A DNA stretch of 63,641 nt from an uncultured Craurococcus sp. (lineage in GTDB: Bacteria; Pseudomonadota; Alphaproteobacteria; Acetobacterales; Acetobacteraceae): the NCBI GenBank assembly GCA_902805545.1, contig CADCTD010000076.1, forward strand, positions 1 through 63,641, written 5' to 3'. Shown one piece after another: positions 56,086 through 63,641 of this stretch. Below the pieces are notes generated by a model. That model ran no database searches and was not told the DNA's origin. It was given only the letters and a program-made list of their open reading frames with translations. Each line of letters starts with the position of its first letter. Within the stretch, counting starts at the first letter, position 1. Made by a program: the position numbers and the translations under genes.

Positions 56086-56840
56086 ATGGCCCTCTCCGGC
56101 ACCGCCTGCCGCATCCTCGACGAGGCCGCTCAGCATCTGCTGCGGCTAGCCGTACCGCCCGACAAACTCCCCACCGCTGCGGCCCGGGCGGTGCTGACGA
56201 GCCTCCTCAAACACGGCTACGTCGAGGCGTGCGAGGCCCCCGGCGAGTTCGCCGACCTGCGCTGGCATCAGCGAGATGGCAGCCGGCCTACTGTGCGCAT
56301 CAGCGAGGGAGGGATCGCCGCCTTTGGCGCGCCGCCAATCGTCACCGCGACGCCGACCGACACCGAGGCCGCAAGCGCCGACACCGACCTCGCCGAAACG
56401 GTCCACGAGCCCGGTAGCACGCCGCTTGCGGCGCCTGAGGTTGCAGAGCCCCTTGAGGGACCGACCGGTGCCGACCCTGCCTTGACGCCCCGCATGGTGT
56501 TCCTGGCACGCCCCAGCCTGCGCGACGCCGCCCACCGGATCCTCGCCGCCTGGGATGACACAACCGGCGGGCGCAAGGACCTGCCTCACGCCATCGCCGC
56601 TCTCCGCGCCATTCTGGTAAAGGCCGCACCGGCAGCTCGTACCAGCGGCGTCCGAAAGCCGCGAGAGGGCAACCAAGCAGCAGCAGGTGCTGGCCCTGCT
56701 GCGCCGGCCGGAGGGTGCGACGGTTGCCCAGATCGCCGAGGCCACCGGCTGGCAGGCGCATACGGTCCGGGGCTTCTTCGCTGGCCTGAAGCGGTGCCAA
56801 GGGGAGCTACACCATCTACCGCATCGCGGAGGCGGGCTGA
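56086..56840 (+). pseudogene. Frameshifted DUF3489 protein gene
   Basis: DUF3489 proteins accompany serine recombinases in alphaproteobacterial cassettes. The N-terminal part (LPTAAARAVLTSLLKHGYVEA, VRISEGGIAAFG) is in frame 1. Near 56650-56680 the frame shifts, and the DNA-binding part continues in frame 2 as QVLALLRRPEGATVAQIAEAT and then TVRGFFAGLK. A deletion of about 50 bases near 56795 then joins to KGSYTIYRIAEAG in the third frame, ending at TGA 56838-56840. It is broken twice. The stop overlaps the next start (TGATG), the normal coupling of this cassette. Confidence 0.75.
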
Positions 56841-57540
56841 TGCGGCCGGCGCTGCCACACGGCGCCGCCCAACTGGCGGTCGGGCTCTGCCGGGTCTTGA
56901 CCGCCGAGCAGCGCCACAGCGGGCTCGGGCTGGAGGCGCAGCAGGCCAGTGTCAGGGCCTATGTCGAGGCTCAGGGCTGGAACTTGGTGGCAGAGTACTC
57001 GGACGCCGCCAGCGGCAAGGACGACCGCCGGCTTGGCTTCCAGGCGGCACTGGCTCGCTGCCGGCAGCTTGGTGCGGTTTTGGTCGCAACCCGGCTCGAC
57101 CGGATTACCCGGCGCGCCCACACTCTCTCAGGAATACCGGAGGAGGGGCACCGGATCCGGGCCGCCGACATGCCGGGCGCCGATGACCTGATGATGCGCA
57201 TTTACGCCGCCATGGCGCAGAAGGAGCGCGAGCTGATCAGCGAGCGCACCAGGGCGGCGCTGCGGGCCGCCAAGGCGCGTGGGGCGGCGCTGGGCGGCGA
57301 CCGGGACTATCGGCCCAGGGCCCCAGCGCCACGGCAGCGGCCCAGGCGCGGCGCATGGCGGCTGAGCGAGTAGCGCACCGGCTGACCTTCGAGGTCGAGC
57401 GGCTGCGGGCGAAAGGTGTCGCCGGCCAGGCGGCGATCGCGCGGGCGCTGACCGAGCGTGGCGTGCCGACGCCGCGGGGCCGCCCTGTCTGGACGCACAC
57501 GACCGTCGCCCGTGTGTTGGCCCGAGCCGAAGCCGGACCC
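56840..57540 (+). pseudogene. Inactive serine recombinase (resolvase/invertase) gene
   Basis: The resolvase domain is recognisable: LAVGLCRVLTAEQRHSGLGLEAQQ, LVATRLDRITR, AAMAQKERELISERTRAAL. The catalytic serine of the RVST motif is replaced by Leu20 (codon TTG, one change from TCG). Near 57312 a frameshift moves the C-terminal DNA-binding part (RAKGVAGQAAIARALTERG, TTVARVLARAEA) into another frame. Either defect would abolish recombination. Confidence 0.78.
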
Positions 57541-59332: not shown

Positions 59333-59764
59333 TCAACGGTCGTTGGTCGGTGTTGAACAGGACGGCTTGGTGCCCGACGGCTCCGCTGCGGCGTCCTCGT
59401 CAGCTTCGATGGCCTGCTGGTCGCGCCCGCGCTCGATAATCTCCAGCAGTTCGGCGTCGGACAGCTCCTGCACCGGTGACACGCTGACCCGGATCTCGTG
59501 CTTCTCCCGCCAGCCCGCACGCGCCTTCATCCAGAAGATCGCCGCCGCGACGTTCTTCTCCAGCGTCGCCATGTTGAACAGCGTCTGCGCCACCTTGACG
59601 TTGGCATCGATCGTGCCGCGGTCCAGCTCGCGGCGGGAGTGCTTGCGTAACGTCTTGGCATCGATCTCGAGGTGGGTGGCGATATCCGCCTGCGGCACCC
59701 CGAACCCCGACATGGCGGGGACCGTGCGCCGCTGATCCTCGGTCGGCTCAAACAGCGCCAGCAT
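59333..59764 (-). CDS. Phage terminase small-subunit-like HTH protein
   Basis: A 143-residue protein with an N-terminal helix-turn-helix (RRTVPAMSGFGVPQADIATHLEIDAKTLRKHSRRELD), a helical middle with AQTLFNMATLEKNVAAAIFWMKARAGWREKHEI, and an acidic tail. This is the pattern of small terminase-type DNA-recognition proteins in alphaproteobacterial prophages. No large terminase subunit is present. It overlaps the methyltransferase remnant by 17 bases on the same strand. It could also be a plain phage regulator. Confidence 0.65.
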   Translation of the reverse strand: MLALFEPTEDQRRTVPAMSGFGVPQADIATHLEIDAKTLRKHSRRELDRGTIDANVKVAQTLFNMATLEKNVAAAIFWMKARAGWREKHEIRVSVSPVQELSDAELLEIIERGRDQQAIEADEDAAAEPSGTKPSCSTPTNDR

Positions 59765-61033
59765 GGACCGCCTCCTCTGCCCTCTCGCTGGCCGTGTCGC
59801 CGAAGCTGCGGCCGTCCCGCTCCAGCACCGCCTGCTGCCCGGTAAAGGCCTGCCAGCGGGTCACCGCCACGTCGACATAGGCCGGCGACAGCTCGATGGC
59901 GTGGCAAGCCCGGCCCTCCATCTCGGCCGCGATCACTGCGGTGCCGGAGCCGCAGAAGGGCTCGTACATCGCCTGGCCAGGGCTGGAGTTGTTCCGGATA
60001 GGCCGCGCCATGCACTCGACCGGCTTCTGGGTGCCGTGGGTGGTCTCGACATCCTGGCCGCGGCTGGCGATCTGCCAGAGTGTCGTCTGCTTACGGTCGC
60101 CGCTCCAGTGCGCGGTGCCGCGAACAGCATACCAACAGGGTTCGTGCTGCCAGTGGTAGTGCCCACGGCCCATCACCAGCCGCTCCTTGGCCCACACGAT
60201 CTGGGCGCGGATCTCGAAGCCGCAGGCGGCGAGGCTCTCTGCCACGCTCGTGGCGTGGAGGGCGCCGTGCCAGACATAGGCCACCTCGCCGGGGAACAGC
60301 GCCCAGGCCTCGCGCCAGTCGGCCCGGTGGTCGTTCAGCACCTTCCCGGTGCGCTGGGTTTTGCTGCCCTCCAGGGCTGCGTTGCGCCAGGCTGGGTTAT
60401 AGTCCACGCCATAAGGTGGGTCGGTGCTGTCGCCGCAAAGCAGGCGATGGCGGCCGAGCTGCCAGAGGTCACCCAGACGGCTCACCGGGTTGGCCGGCAC
60501 CTCCGGCACGTCATTGGGATCGGTCAGGCCTGCGGCGGGCTCGACCAGGAGCCCGCTGATCTCGAGCGCGTCGAAGCCGGTCAGCGCGAGGTCAAAGCCG
60601 TCAGCCTGCAGCTCGCCAAGTTCGATCCGCAGAGGTCCTCGTCCCAGCTGGCCGAGAGGGCCACGCGGTTGCCGGCAAGGATGTAGGCCCGACGTTGGGC
60701 TGGCGTTAGGTGCCCGAGCTCGATGGTCAGCACCTCGTTCAGGCCCAGCTTGCGAGCGGCGAGCAAGCGGCCATGGCTGGCGATGACGCCGCGGTCGCCA
60801 TCGACCAGGATGGGGTTGGTGAAGCCGAACTCGCGGATCGAGGCGGCGATTTGAGCCACCTGTGCCTCGGAGTGGGTCGGGGCATTGCGGGCGTAGGGCA
60901 CCAGCTCGGCAATACGCGCTGGCCGGTATGTGGGAAACAGGGGTGAGGCTGGCGCGGCTGGCACACGCGATGTCGCGGTGGCGCTTCCTTGCGGTATGTC
61001 CTCGGGCTGCGGGATGCACTTGCGGCCGGCCAT
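59748..61033 (-). pseudogene. Frameshifted ParB-domain DNA methyltransferase
   Basis: Phage-type fusion of an N-terminal ParB-like nuclease domain (FGFTNPILVDGDRGVIASHGRLLAARKLG) and a beta-class adenine/N4-cytosine methyltransferase (TDPPYGVDYNPAW; C-terminal YEPFCGSGTAVIAAEMEGR). At about 60640 one base is missing (family WDEDLLRIELGELQ; here ctctgcgg instead of ctcctgcgg), which splits the two halves into different frames. In addition LLCGDS is joined directly to TDPPY, where relatives have about 25 more residues. The start is the ATG at 61033. It would need a second start to make even the methyltransferase part. Confidence 0.72.
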
Positions 61034-61245
61034 CGGCAGGGTTCCTGGCGGCGCTGCGGGTGAGCGCTGCGACGCCGATAGGATACCGGATGAGGAATCA
61101 ACGGCGCAACACGACATGCTCTCGCTGTACTACGATCTTCCACGAACAATGGAGCGTTTGGCGGCGCAACCGACGCTTCTCTCGAAGGGGATGCCGCTCG
61201 TAGGTCGGGAAAGGACCCGTACCGAACAAGCTCTAGCCCAACTGG

Positions 61246-61353
61246 AAATGACGCAGATGACGCAAATGACGCCTTCTCCTCATATGATCCCCTATTCACT
61301 TCTCCCGGTCAGACCAATCGATAGAGAACTGCGTCACGGCGCGTCATGCGTCA
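61246..61353. other. Candidate replication origin with inverted TGACGC iterons
   Basis: Three copies of TGACGC, nine bases apart, lie at 61249, 61258 and 61267. Three inverted copies (GCGTCA) lie at 61331, 61341 and 61348. Between the two sets are 58 bases of about 47% GC, low for this DNA. The right-hand set overlaps the last codons and the stop of the VapE gene. Two opposed iteron sets around a meltable gap, at the 3' end of a rep-like gene, is the known plan of SaPI origins. Function here is inferred from layout only. Confidence 0.55.
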
Positions 61354-62249
61354 CGCTGGGTGCCGGGGGCATACCACGGCCTGGCGTCGCTCCGGCGGGC
61401 TCCTTGGATCCACCCAAGCCGTGTCAAGGTGGCCGTGATACGTCGCTGATCTGCCGTCCCAACCTTCGGCACATCCATTGACAGCCCTTTCTGCGCTACT
61501 TCGAGAACTGTGGTTGTTGACCGACTTGCGAGGATCTGGGCAATTGCCTCCTCCCAAGCATCCTCTTCGAACCGGGCCTCTTGCTCAGGCGCGATGTACC
61601 TTGCCTCAAACTCAGCATTGGGCCACCAAGCAGCTCCTTCCCGGAAAAGTCGGACTGCCTCCGCGAAGAGCTGGTCGCGGTCGCGTCGCAGCCCCGCTGT
61701 GTCTATACAGCTGATCCTCACCGGCCAAAATCGACGGCCACCAGTCTCGTCGCGCAGATAGGTCTCTCGATTGGTCTTACCGATAGAGATGCATTGGCGG
61801 GGTTCAACCACTTCGCGGCGCCCATAGCTGGGACGATACCGCTCCACCGGCCGGGTGATGAACGCTTTGAGCGCCGCTGCCTCAGGCTTATCCAGCGCTG
61901 AGGGTTTGGCCACCTCGATAAGCCATTTGCCGTTAAGATGCTGCGACACGTCCTTGCCGCCTCGGATGTCCGGCAGGTTGTCGGAAAACCAACAGCCACC
62001 CAGGATGGCGCAGGCGGTCGACTTCCTTGCCCCTTGAGGCCCTTCTAGGACCAGCATGTAGTCGGCCTTGCACCCAGGTCGGTAGACGCGAGCCACCATG
62101 GCGACCAAGAACATGGTGCCGATGCCGGTGGCGTACTCCCCGGACGCAACACCGAGATAGGCTTGAACGGCTTCAACCAGCGCTGGGTCGCACCACCGGA
62201 GAATCATGTCGCGCAGCGAGAGCTGCTCGTTCTTCGCAGTCCTTGCCAT
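61344..62249 (-). CDS. VapE-type (virulence-associated E) replication ATPase
   Basis: A 301-residue P-loop protein with Walker A GPQGARKST (70-78), CAILGGCWFSDNLPDIRGGKDVSQHL, ALKAFITRPVERYRPSYGRREVVEPRQCISIGKTNRETYLRDETGGRRFWP and a C-terminal winged region. VapE ATPases serve as replication initiator/helicases in phages, ICEs and PICIs. Full-length forms have a primase-like domain in front; here the frame begins just before the ATPase, so it is a short or truncated version. The segment IEVAKPSALDKPEA differs from the usual IEVAEMHAM, so its Walker B region may be altered. Confidence 0.83.
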   Translation of the reverse strand: MARTAKNEQLSLRDMILRWCDPALVEAVQAYLGVASGEYATGIGTMFLVAMVARVYRPGCKADYMLVLEGPQGARKSTACAILGGCWFSDNLPDIRGGKDVSQHLNGKWLIEVAKPSALDKPEAAALKAFITRPVERYRPSYGRREVVEPRQCISIGKTNRETYLRDETGGRRFWPVRISCIDTAGLRRDRDQLFAEAVRLFREGAAWWPNAEFEARYIAPEQEARFEEDAWEEAIAQILASRSTTTVLEVAQKGLSMDVPKVGTADQRRITATLTRLGWIQGARRSDARPWYAPGTQRDA

Positions 62250-62559
62250 TCCTCGACTCCGAGTCGTGGGCTGCAGTTCAATCAAGCAGCTTCCGCCCGC
62301 ACCAGGGTCTTACTGGCCATCACCTCGGCGGTTGGTGCGTCATGAGCTGCCAAGCCGCCGCGGAACCGGCAAAGCCGCACCTCCCACCCCACCTCCGCGA
62401 GGCCTGCTCCCTCCTTGGAGTCGGCTTGTTGCGCCTCCGGTGCCGCACTGCCAAGGATTTCGCCCGCGACGCCGCACAGCCCGGCGACCAGGGAGAAAGT
62501 TCGCTACACTTCCGAGCCGACCAGAGCATGCATGCGAACCGGAGCAACCCGAGACCCGC
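62250..62559. other. Divergent promoter stretch between the VapE and DUF2924 genes
   Basis: About 310 bases with no convincing gene. It separates divergent VapE and DUF2924/recombinase transcription and probably carries both promoters. I saw no clear operator. Confidence 0.45.
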
Positions 62560-63063
62560 ATGCCCCGTATAGCCACGAACCAAGCCGTTCAGGCGCCCAC
62601 GTTCGCTGTCACCGCCATCCCGCAGGCGGACGTCCTGGGCCGCCTAGCTGCCCTACGGTCGGCGCCCATCGCCCATCTGAAGCAGCAATGGCGGGAGCTA
62701 TTCGGCAAGGAGCCGCCGCCCTTCAACCGCACGTACCTCCAGAGCCGCCTCGCCTACCGCATCCAGGAACTGGCGTATGGCGGCTTGAAGCCCGAGACCC
62801 GGGCACGGCTGGAAGCACTTGGCGAGCAGCTCGACGGCGGCAACGTCGTCCTACGTAGCATCTGGGCTAACAGCCGGCCGCTGCCCGGCACACGATTGAT
62901 CCGCGAATACGACGGCGTTCAGCACGTGGTCACGGTCCGGACCGACGACTTCGAGTACGAGGGGCGGCCTTATCGGTCCCTCTCTGCCATCGCCCGCCAC
63001 ATCACCGGCACGCGCTGGAACGGCTGGACCTTTTTTGGCTTGCGCCACCGAGGTGGCGCGTGA
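62560..63063 (+). CDS. DUF2924 protein
   Basis: A 167-residue DUF2924 protein. Typical segments are VLGRLAALRSAPIAHLKQQWRELFGKEPPPFNRTYLQSRLAYRIQELAYGGL, GTRLIREYDGVQHVVTV and FEYEGRPYRSLSAIARHITGTRWNGWTFFGL. It is nearly always encoded just before a large serine recombinase and is thought to assist it. Here its stop overlaps the recombinase GTG start (GTGA). Confidence 0.87.
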   Translation: MPRIATNQAVQAPTFAVTAIPQADVLGRLAALRSAPIAHLKQQWRELFGKEPPPFNRTYLQSRLAYRIQELAYGGLKPETRARLEALGEQLDGGNVVLRSIWANSRPLPGTRLIREYDGVQHVVTVRTDDFEYEGRPYRSLSAIARHITGTRWNGWTFFGLRHRGGA

Positions 63064-63641
63064 GCCGCCGCACGCGCACCGACGCCGCGATTCCGGCGAA
63101 GGTGAAGAAGCTCCGCTGCGCGGTTTATACCCGCAAGAGCACGGACGAGGGGCTCGACCAGGCGTTCAACACCCTCGACGCCCAGCGCGACGCCTGCGAA
63201 GCCTACATCGCCAGCCAGCGCGCCGAGGGCTGGACCCTCGTCCGCGACCGCTACGACGACGGCGGCTTCTCGGGCGGCACCCTGGAGCGCCCGGCGTTGC
63301 GGCGCCTGCTCGCCGACATTGAGGCGGGCCGGTTGGACGTGGTGGTGGTCTACAAGATCGACCGCCTGAGCCGCTCGCTGACCGACTTCGCCAAGCTGGT
63401 GGACGCCTTCGAGGCGCACGGCGTGACCTTCGTCTCCGTGACGCAGGCCTTCAACACCACGACCAGCATGGGCAGGCTGACGCTCAACATCCTGCTCTCC
63501 TTCGCGCAGTTCGAGCGCGAGGTGATCGGGGAGCGGATCCGCGACAAGGTGGCGGCCTCCAAGGCGCGCGGCATGTGGATGGGCGGCAAGGTGCCGCTCG
63601 GCTACGACGTGCGCGAGCGCAAGCTCATGATGAACGAGGCC
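63060..63641 (+). CDS. Large serine recombinase (integrase), cut by the window end
   Basis: The first 194 residues of a large serine recombinase, running off the window. The catalytic Ser27 is in YTRKSTDEG. The resolvase core continues with FNTLDAQRDACEAYIASQ, VYKIDRLSRSLTDFAKL, SFAQFEREVIGERIRDKVAASKARGMWMGGKVPLGYD. All key residues visible are intact, unlike the other recombinase at 56.8 kb. It is the likely integrase of the neighbouring mobile module. The start is GTG at 63060. Confidence 0.9.
   Translation, partial: MSRRTRTDAAIPAKVKKLRCAVYTRKSTDEGLDQAFNTLDAQRDACEAYIASQRAEGWTLVRDRYDDGGFSGGTLERPALRRLLADIEAGRLDVVVVYKIDRLSRSLTDFAKLVDAFEAHGVTFVSVTQAFNTTTSMGRLTLNILLSFAQFEREVIGERIRDKVAASKARGMWMGGKVPLGYDVRERKLMMNEA

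Follow-up and report, generated by a model that had tools for sequence, protein, structure and literature searches.

In satellite P4 (alpha/ori/crr) the primase-helicase binds short iterons, and the loci described below are likened to this system by description only. In descriptions of PICI/SaPI origins, two sets of iterons flank an AT-rich region and come after a rep/pri gene, and in the accessible text this two-set layout is called common to no replicon other than PICIs (PMC6092414). In SCCmec, the isolated C-terminal domain of the D5-type helicase Cch2 binds repeats downstream of the operon; the accessible text reports three direct AAGTG-type iterons, together with inverted repeats that are not needed for binding (PMC7581432). 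The primase-helicase-winged-helix protein of the archaeal Sulfolobus plasmid pRN1 needs a 100-bp stem-loop downstream of its gene, with a stem of 21 nt and a loop of 58 nt according to the available part of the paper (PMC4234260). A literature search, with most subscription papers outside its reach, found no paper joining VapE with iterons.

The locus analysed here belongs to an uncultured Craurococcus sp. (Acetobacteraceae; assembly GCA_902805545.1). The window, i.e. the whole stretch of DNA analysed, is 63,641 nucleotides long, corresponds to the whole of contig CADCTD010000076.1 and ends inside a recombinase gene. An interval at the 3' end of its VapE gene most probably served as the origin of a prophage replication module of the VapE type, which now lies in a decayed remnant. 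In common with SaPI/PICI origins, the site stands directly 3' of the initiator gene and has two short-repeat sets with a lower-GC centre; judged from its sequence, it is very likely an origin of this kind in layout. In contrast to the SaPI/PICI origins, compared by description only, the loci studied here are from prophage and plasmid replicons, their arrays are inverted and often mirror-spaced, their spacer often carries an alternating purine-pyrimidine tract, and their repeat word has been exchanged repeatedly. With the putative SCCmec Cch2 origin they share a D5/primase-type helicase and downstream repeats, whereas two inverted iteron arrays form no part of the description in the accessible text (PMC7581432). 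The pRN1 origin likewise lies just 3' of a primase-helicase-winged-helix gene and has inverted arms and a similar loop length, but the available part of the paper describes it as a stem-loop and not as iteron arrays (PMC4234260).

Repeat arrays and spacer in the window

Exact word counts placed six copies of TGACGC within a span of 105 bp. The left array, distal to VapE (61249-61272, + strand), consists of three direct copies at 61249-61254, 61258-61263 and 61267-61272, spaced 9 and 9; the right array (61331-61353, - strand) consists of three copies at 61331-61336, 61341-61346 and 61348-61353, spaced 10 and 7. The 58-bp spacer in between (61273-61330), a candidate opening region, has 46.6% GC in a GC scan against 62-67% in the flanks, which is lower, yet not AT-rich in absolute terms; a GC content as low as this was found in 0.42% of the 58-bp stretches of the window. 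The right array stands immediately 3' of the initiator gene and overlaps its stop, the VapE stop codon (61344-61346, - strand) being the TGA of the middle inverted copy. Both this position and the presence of two iteron sets (3 + 3 TGACGC) are as in origins of the PICI/SaPI type. The initial annotation had described three direct copies with a period of 9 and three inverted copies around a 58-bp lower-GC gap, with the right set overlapping the VapE stop, and all of these elements were recovered at exact positions.

Taken alone, TGACGC was not over-represented in the window (60 copies found, 52.9 expected; 60 reached in 15 of 100 shuffles). Layouts were scored with a detector that accepted any 6-mer with at least two direct and at least two inverted copies 25-140 bp apart. 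The window scored 6; among 100 dinucleotide shuffles, a score of 5 was obtained once and a score of 4 in 35, and 64 gave nothing. Across the 4.53-Mb assembly there are just two instances of triple TGACGC, namely the two arrays of the window. Chance or coding repeats would account for a period of 9 that is in frame, with a + strand ORF (60930-61481) reading MTQMTQMT across the left array, and a one-sided triple TGACGC is common, being found in 93 of the 120 listed stretches that were selected on DNA alone. However, the window score was reached by 0 of 100 shuffles, a Pfam search at E 0.01 gave no match for the ORF, and in relatives any reading frame is broken by steps of 7, 8 and 10. The probability of this explanation is negligible, and it was ruled out on the recurrence in relatives and the shuffles.

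The layout in VapE relatives

Loci were chosen by similarity to the window VapE. Set 1 comprised 76 loci (47 from viral contigs, 20 from relatives' genomes, the window's own and 8 from annotated plasmids or phages), and set 2 the best 80 of at least 503 VapE relatives on genome contigs; both sets were clustered at 90% identity, giving 119 clusters with the window included. At the VapE 3' end the layout was present in 55/76 loci of set 1 (0/1520 shuffles) and in 38/80 loci of set 2, the best 80 of at least 503; in other overlapping intervals of the 76 loci it was found in 14/2525, some of which were displaced arrays. Set 2 was split into loci L197-L254, of which 36/58 scored, and L255-L276, with 2/22. 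The latter are mostly from Rhodobacteraceae, with a VapE of ~900 aa in most, and 2 of the 22 have too little downstream DNA; their origin, if near VapE, must look different.

The initial annotation had asked for the repeats to be sought in VapE relatives, where their absence or random spacing would count against an origin. Two inverted arrays around a lower-GC spacer were kept at the same place, the VapE 3' end, in 80/119 non-redundant clusters among the matches listed, with at least five repeat copies in 62 of these 80, and absence or random spacing was thus not the case for most; the exact layout is lacking in 39/119. Of these misses, 31 were inspected by eye and several had imperfect arrays and several none; exact 6-mer detection therefore understates the layout. 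At the 80 VapE loci the repeats follow each other in regular steps of 7-10 bp (246/263 steps), the gap between the arrays has a median of 71 bp (range 35-121), and the GC content of the spacer averages 50% compared with 62% in the flanks, being lower in 79/80.

Twelve loci from named phages and plasmids, two of them already in set 1 and one ending at the end of its record, were scored with somewhat looser settings; 4/11 scored, namely Paenibacillus phage FutureBee, Hamiltonella phage APSE-1, Marinobacter phage PS3 and, weakly, Rhodobacter phage RcIroh. Some arrangements differed from the usual one. At L007:4233-4480, two tandem origin-like array sets follow a single VapE, with the words CACAGCGC and then TGACGC. 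At L053 a 3+3 TGACGC layout is displaced from the gene end and stands ~630 bp past the VapE stop, and at L045 a 3+3 TGGGAC layout lies ~2.9 kb after VapE.

Loci selected on DNA alone and D5 primase-helicase loci

For a selection on DNA alone, viral contigs were searched for three close TGACGC copies, which yielded at least 120 stretches; some are near-copies, and the contigs carrying L096 and L137 recur in set 1. Two-sided arrays were found in 27 of the at least 120 stretches, and for 23 of these 27 a gene 3' end is at most ~210 bp away (VapE in 7, D5 in 16). Neither gene was found near the two-sided arrays of L087, L122, L129 and L145, of which L145 and L122 are close to the end of the stretch. 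One-sided stretches, many of which are in-register period-9 repeats, lie within 400 bp of a VapE or D5 3' end in 6/93 among the matches listed, and a triple TGACGC on one side only does not serve as a marker. The D5 profile used here was built from eight of the same loci, where Pfam independently finds D5_N and/or DUF5906.

D5 loci were also collected by family alone, by a D5_N search in 195 relatives' genomes; 30 loci of 35 matches were taken and 29 were testable. The layout was present in 17/29, mostly with words of their own, versus 0/344 control intervals and 0/580 shuffles. The score was the minimal 4 in 13 of the 17, and there are near-copies both here (L304 and L320) and among the misses (several). 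In the window's own genome no D5_N protein was found.

Spacer composition

In 17/17 D5 spacers purines and pyrimidines alternate over a tract of 10 nt or more, versus 62/2417 control stretches and 57/850 shuffled spacers. In these 17 D5 loci (from L294-L322), whose hosts are same-family and same-class relatives, the tract is (CG/CA)n-like in every spacer. The tract was found in 34/80 VapE spacers, compared with 5.8% of shuffled ones, and in 20/25 distinct spacers of the DNA-selected set, near-copies included; the window's own 58-bp spacer, when its sequence was read, contained none. A literature search on origins gave no occurrence of alternating tract or Z-DNA terms among the matches listed. 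The GC content of D5 spacers is 58% compared with 64% in the gene (lower in 14/17), so that these spacers are not AT-rich. The initial annotation had cited an AT-rich melting region for SaPI origins; in the window the spacer has a lower GC content than its flanks, and in the family the spacers are often not AT-rich.

Mirror symmetry and folding

In 14/25 loci with a 3+3 layout the spacings of the two arrays are exact mirror images, whereas random pairing gives 3.6 on average and reached 14 in 0/2000 trials. The inner spacing exceeds the outer one in 39/50 arrays, the reverse being seen in 2. Where at least two copies of TGACGC are present on each strand, the word points inward in 32/39 loci, is mixed in 7 and points outward in 0. 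Mirror spacing and inward words are compatible with a pair of complexes that face each other, and with a stem-loop too. Folding was better than in shuffles (z < -2) for 79/80 loci, a count that is biased because the loci were selected for inverted repeats; z is -3.8 for the window and -6.4 as the median over the 80 loci, with the same selection biasing the values.

The origin might alternatively be recognised as an extruded stem-loop (cruciform), as proposed for pRN1, with the arrays as the stem and the spacer as the loop. The mirrored spacings and the selection-biased folding values speak for it, as does the pRN1 protein with its need for a downstream stem-loop with a 58-nt loop in the available part of the paper (PMC4234260). 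Direct repetition inside each arm, however, is not needed for the function of a stem, and 11 of the 25 3+3 loci, the window included, are not mirror-exact. A stem-loop origin is unlikely, and an origin with two arrays as binding sites of the initiator is preferred.

Repeat word and C-terminal domain

In the 80 VapE loci the word is of the TGACGC type in 46 and another one in 34; for the word tests L023 was placed in the TGACGC group, which gave 47 versus 33. On a tree of the 80 helicase domains, word type takes 17 parsimony changes, of which well-supported branches force only 3. At a helicase identity of at least 80%, the C-terminal parts are 65.5% identical in same-word pairs (19) and 52.5% in different-word pairs (21). 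At matched helicase identity, word and C-terminal divergence gave a partial correlation of 0.24, computed over locus pairs and uncorrected for relatedness, a value reached in 0/1000 label shuffles. Between L026 and L027 the identity is 92% in the helicase and 43% in the C-terminal part, and their words are TGACGC and AACGCT; some same-word pairs also have diverged C-terminal parts. This points to the C-terminal domain of VapE, which from its sequence and by analogy looks like a winged helix, as the putative reader of the repeats.

An operator or transcription-end element of the VapE operon or of a neighbour would suit repeats at the end of a gene, inverted arrays that can form hairpins, and initiators, which often autoregulate. 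Against an operator, the repeats are at the 3' end and not at a promoter; a terminator does not fit with mirrored arrays around a spacer, changing words and the same layout behind D5 genes. Such an element is considered quite improbable.

Gene neighbourhood and replicon type

The VapE-family helicase of the window is a remnant of 313 aa (61344-62285, - strand) with matches to PF05272 (1.3e-64), phrog_256 and PDB 7pds (E=2.3e-33). Its PF05272 score of 218 bits, versus a curated cut-off of 25, places it in the family, and it was the only PF05272 protein found in the window's genome. The molecule name of 7pds, to which it is homologous by sequence, is 'Similar to D. nodosus vapE'; we take 7pds to be SaPI1 Rep. 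The N-terminal half is missing, as tblastn with 11 long open VapE frames from relatives matched their C-terminal part only, from residue 377-511 onward. In the protein, K replaces an E that is present in 51/53 alignment rows, another K replaces T at reference-row position 232, and there are further changes at near-invariant columns; an intact helicase core together with an N-terminal region, as expected of an active VapE initiator, was not found in it. Downstream on the same strand lie the ParB-like part of a ParB/methyltransferase gene (60581-61117, - strand; phrog_15396, phrog_498; with homologues in relatives), the DNA methyltransferase portion of this broken gene in another frame (59748-61019, - strand; PF01555 6.7e-13, phrog_498 1.7e-82) and a terminase small subunit-like ORF (59333-59764, - strand; phrog_309 5.4e-15), whose order matches that in some relatives. 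Since half of VapE is missing and ParB-methylase is in two frames, we read the element as a broken prophage remnant. With VapE truncated and altered in this genome, the window's copy of the origin is probably an inactive fossil. At 56687-57373 there is a recombinase frame of the resolvase type whose start matches DUF3489, separate from a second recombinase at 63060-63641.

The order VapE, arrays, ParB/methylase, terminase small subunit is common to the window and the relatives L041, L215, L222 and L223, all of which score for arrays; in L208 the gene order is as in the window, but the arrays do not score, and in L201 and L202 a TerS-like match also stands before the ParB part. From this shared order, a packaging site or ParB centromere could be proposed for the repeats. 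Homologues of the window's ParB/methylase, however, are near 14/155 relatives within the flanks examined, versus the layout in 80/119 clusters, and the layout also occurs on a 4.3-kb plasmid with no terminase among its listed genes. The proposal was rejected on these two points and has very little probability.

A search for the TerL nuclease (PF20441) and portal (PF04860) families only was carried out in 11 genomes (10 relatives and the window's own). A portal gene was found within ~8 kb of VapE in 3/10 relatives' genomes: G058 and G037 carry a terminase gene as well as a portal gene at this distance and G023 a portal gene, and the other seven gave no PF20441 or PF04860 match near VapE. Both families are absent from the whole genome of the window, where the contig end truncates the remnant. 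Plasmid pGO128 (4340 bp) carries AGTGCT/GGTGCT-type repeats after VapE; among its five genes listed in PLSDB (an incomplete table), VapE is the sole helicase-type gene and a terminase is not listed. The VapE module is thus bound neither to satellites nor to packaging genes, given the portal genes of the relatives and this plasmid. Of the SaPI-like satellite origin beside VapE in the initial annotation, the two sets around a lower-GC gap were upheld; the spacers are often not AT-rich, and the label 'satellite' was dropped as unsupported for the window element on the phage gene order of its relatives and their nearby portal genes.

Proposed mechanism and implications

Beyond the layout, its position and recurrence, the mirror symmetry, the word exchange and the tie to VapE and D5 genes, all of which were observed directly, we infer that protein binding, ring loading, opening and priming would take place at the arrays. 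In intact relatives, VapE has a helicase core, behind which comes the C-terminal domain; the longer forms would also carry a primase-type region at the N-terminus. The C-terminal domain would bind the two mirrored arrays just 3' of its own gene, and one VapE ring may assemble per array, so placed that the two rings face each other. The facing rings would open the lower-GC spacer between the arrays, and priming in the opened spacer would allow the host polymerase to extend in both directions.

As a possible, still tentative joint reading, the window holds a faded copy from a large unnamed class of origins of VapE and D5 helicases, spread over GC-rich bacteria on phages, prophages and small plasmids. 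In this class, words and C-terminal readers would be exchangeable, and the mirrored arrays would flank a core in which an alternating (CG/CA)n tract, instead of AT-rich DNA, serves as the opening or priming element. New here are the wide occurrence of the layout, the swapping of the word along with the C-terminal domain, the mirror-image spacing and the alternating core. The two-array layout is extended from PICIs, for which it is described in the accessible text (PMC6092414), to prophages and plasmids, and a sequence rule is obtained for locating candidate origins of many VapE and D5 replicons from DNA alone. Natural experiments of the L026/L027 type make initiator-iteron specificity directly testable, and the alternating purine-pyrimidine core raises the question of how origins open in GC-rich genomes. 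If the joint reading is true, two-array origins would not be peculiar to PICIs, and the melting region in the origins of GC-rich hosts could be Z-DNA-prone DNA.
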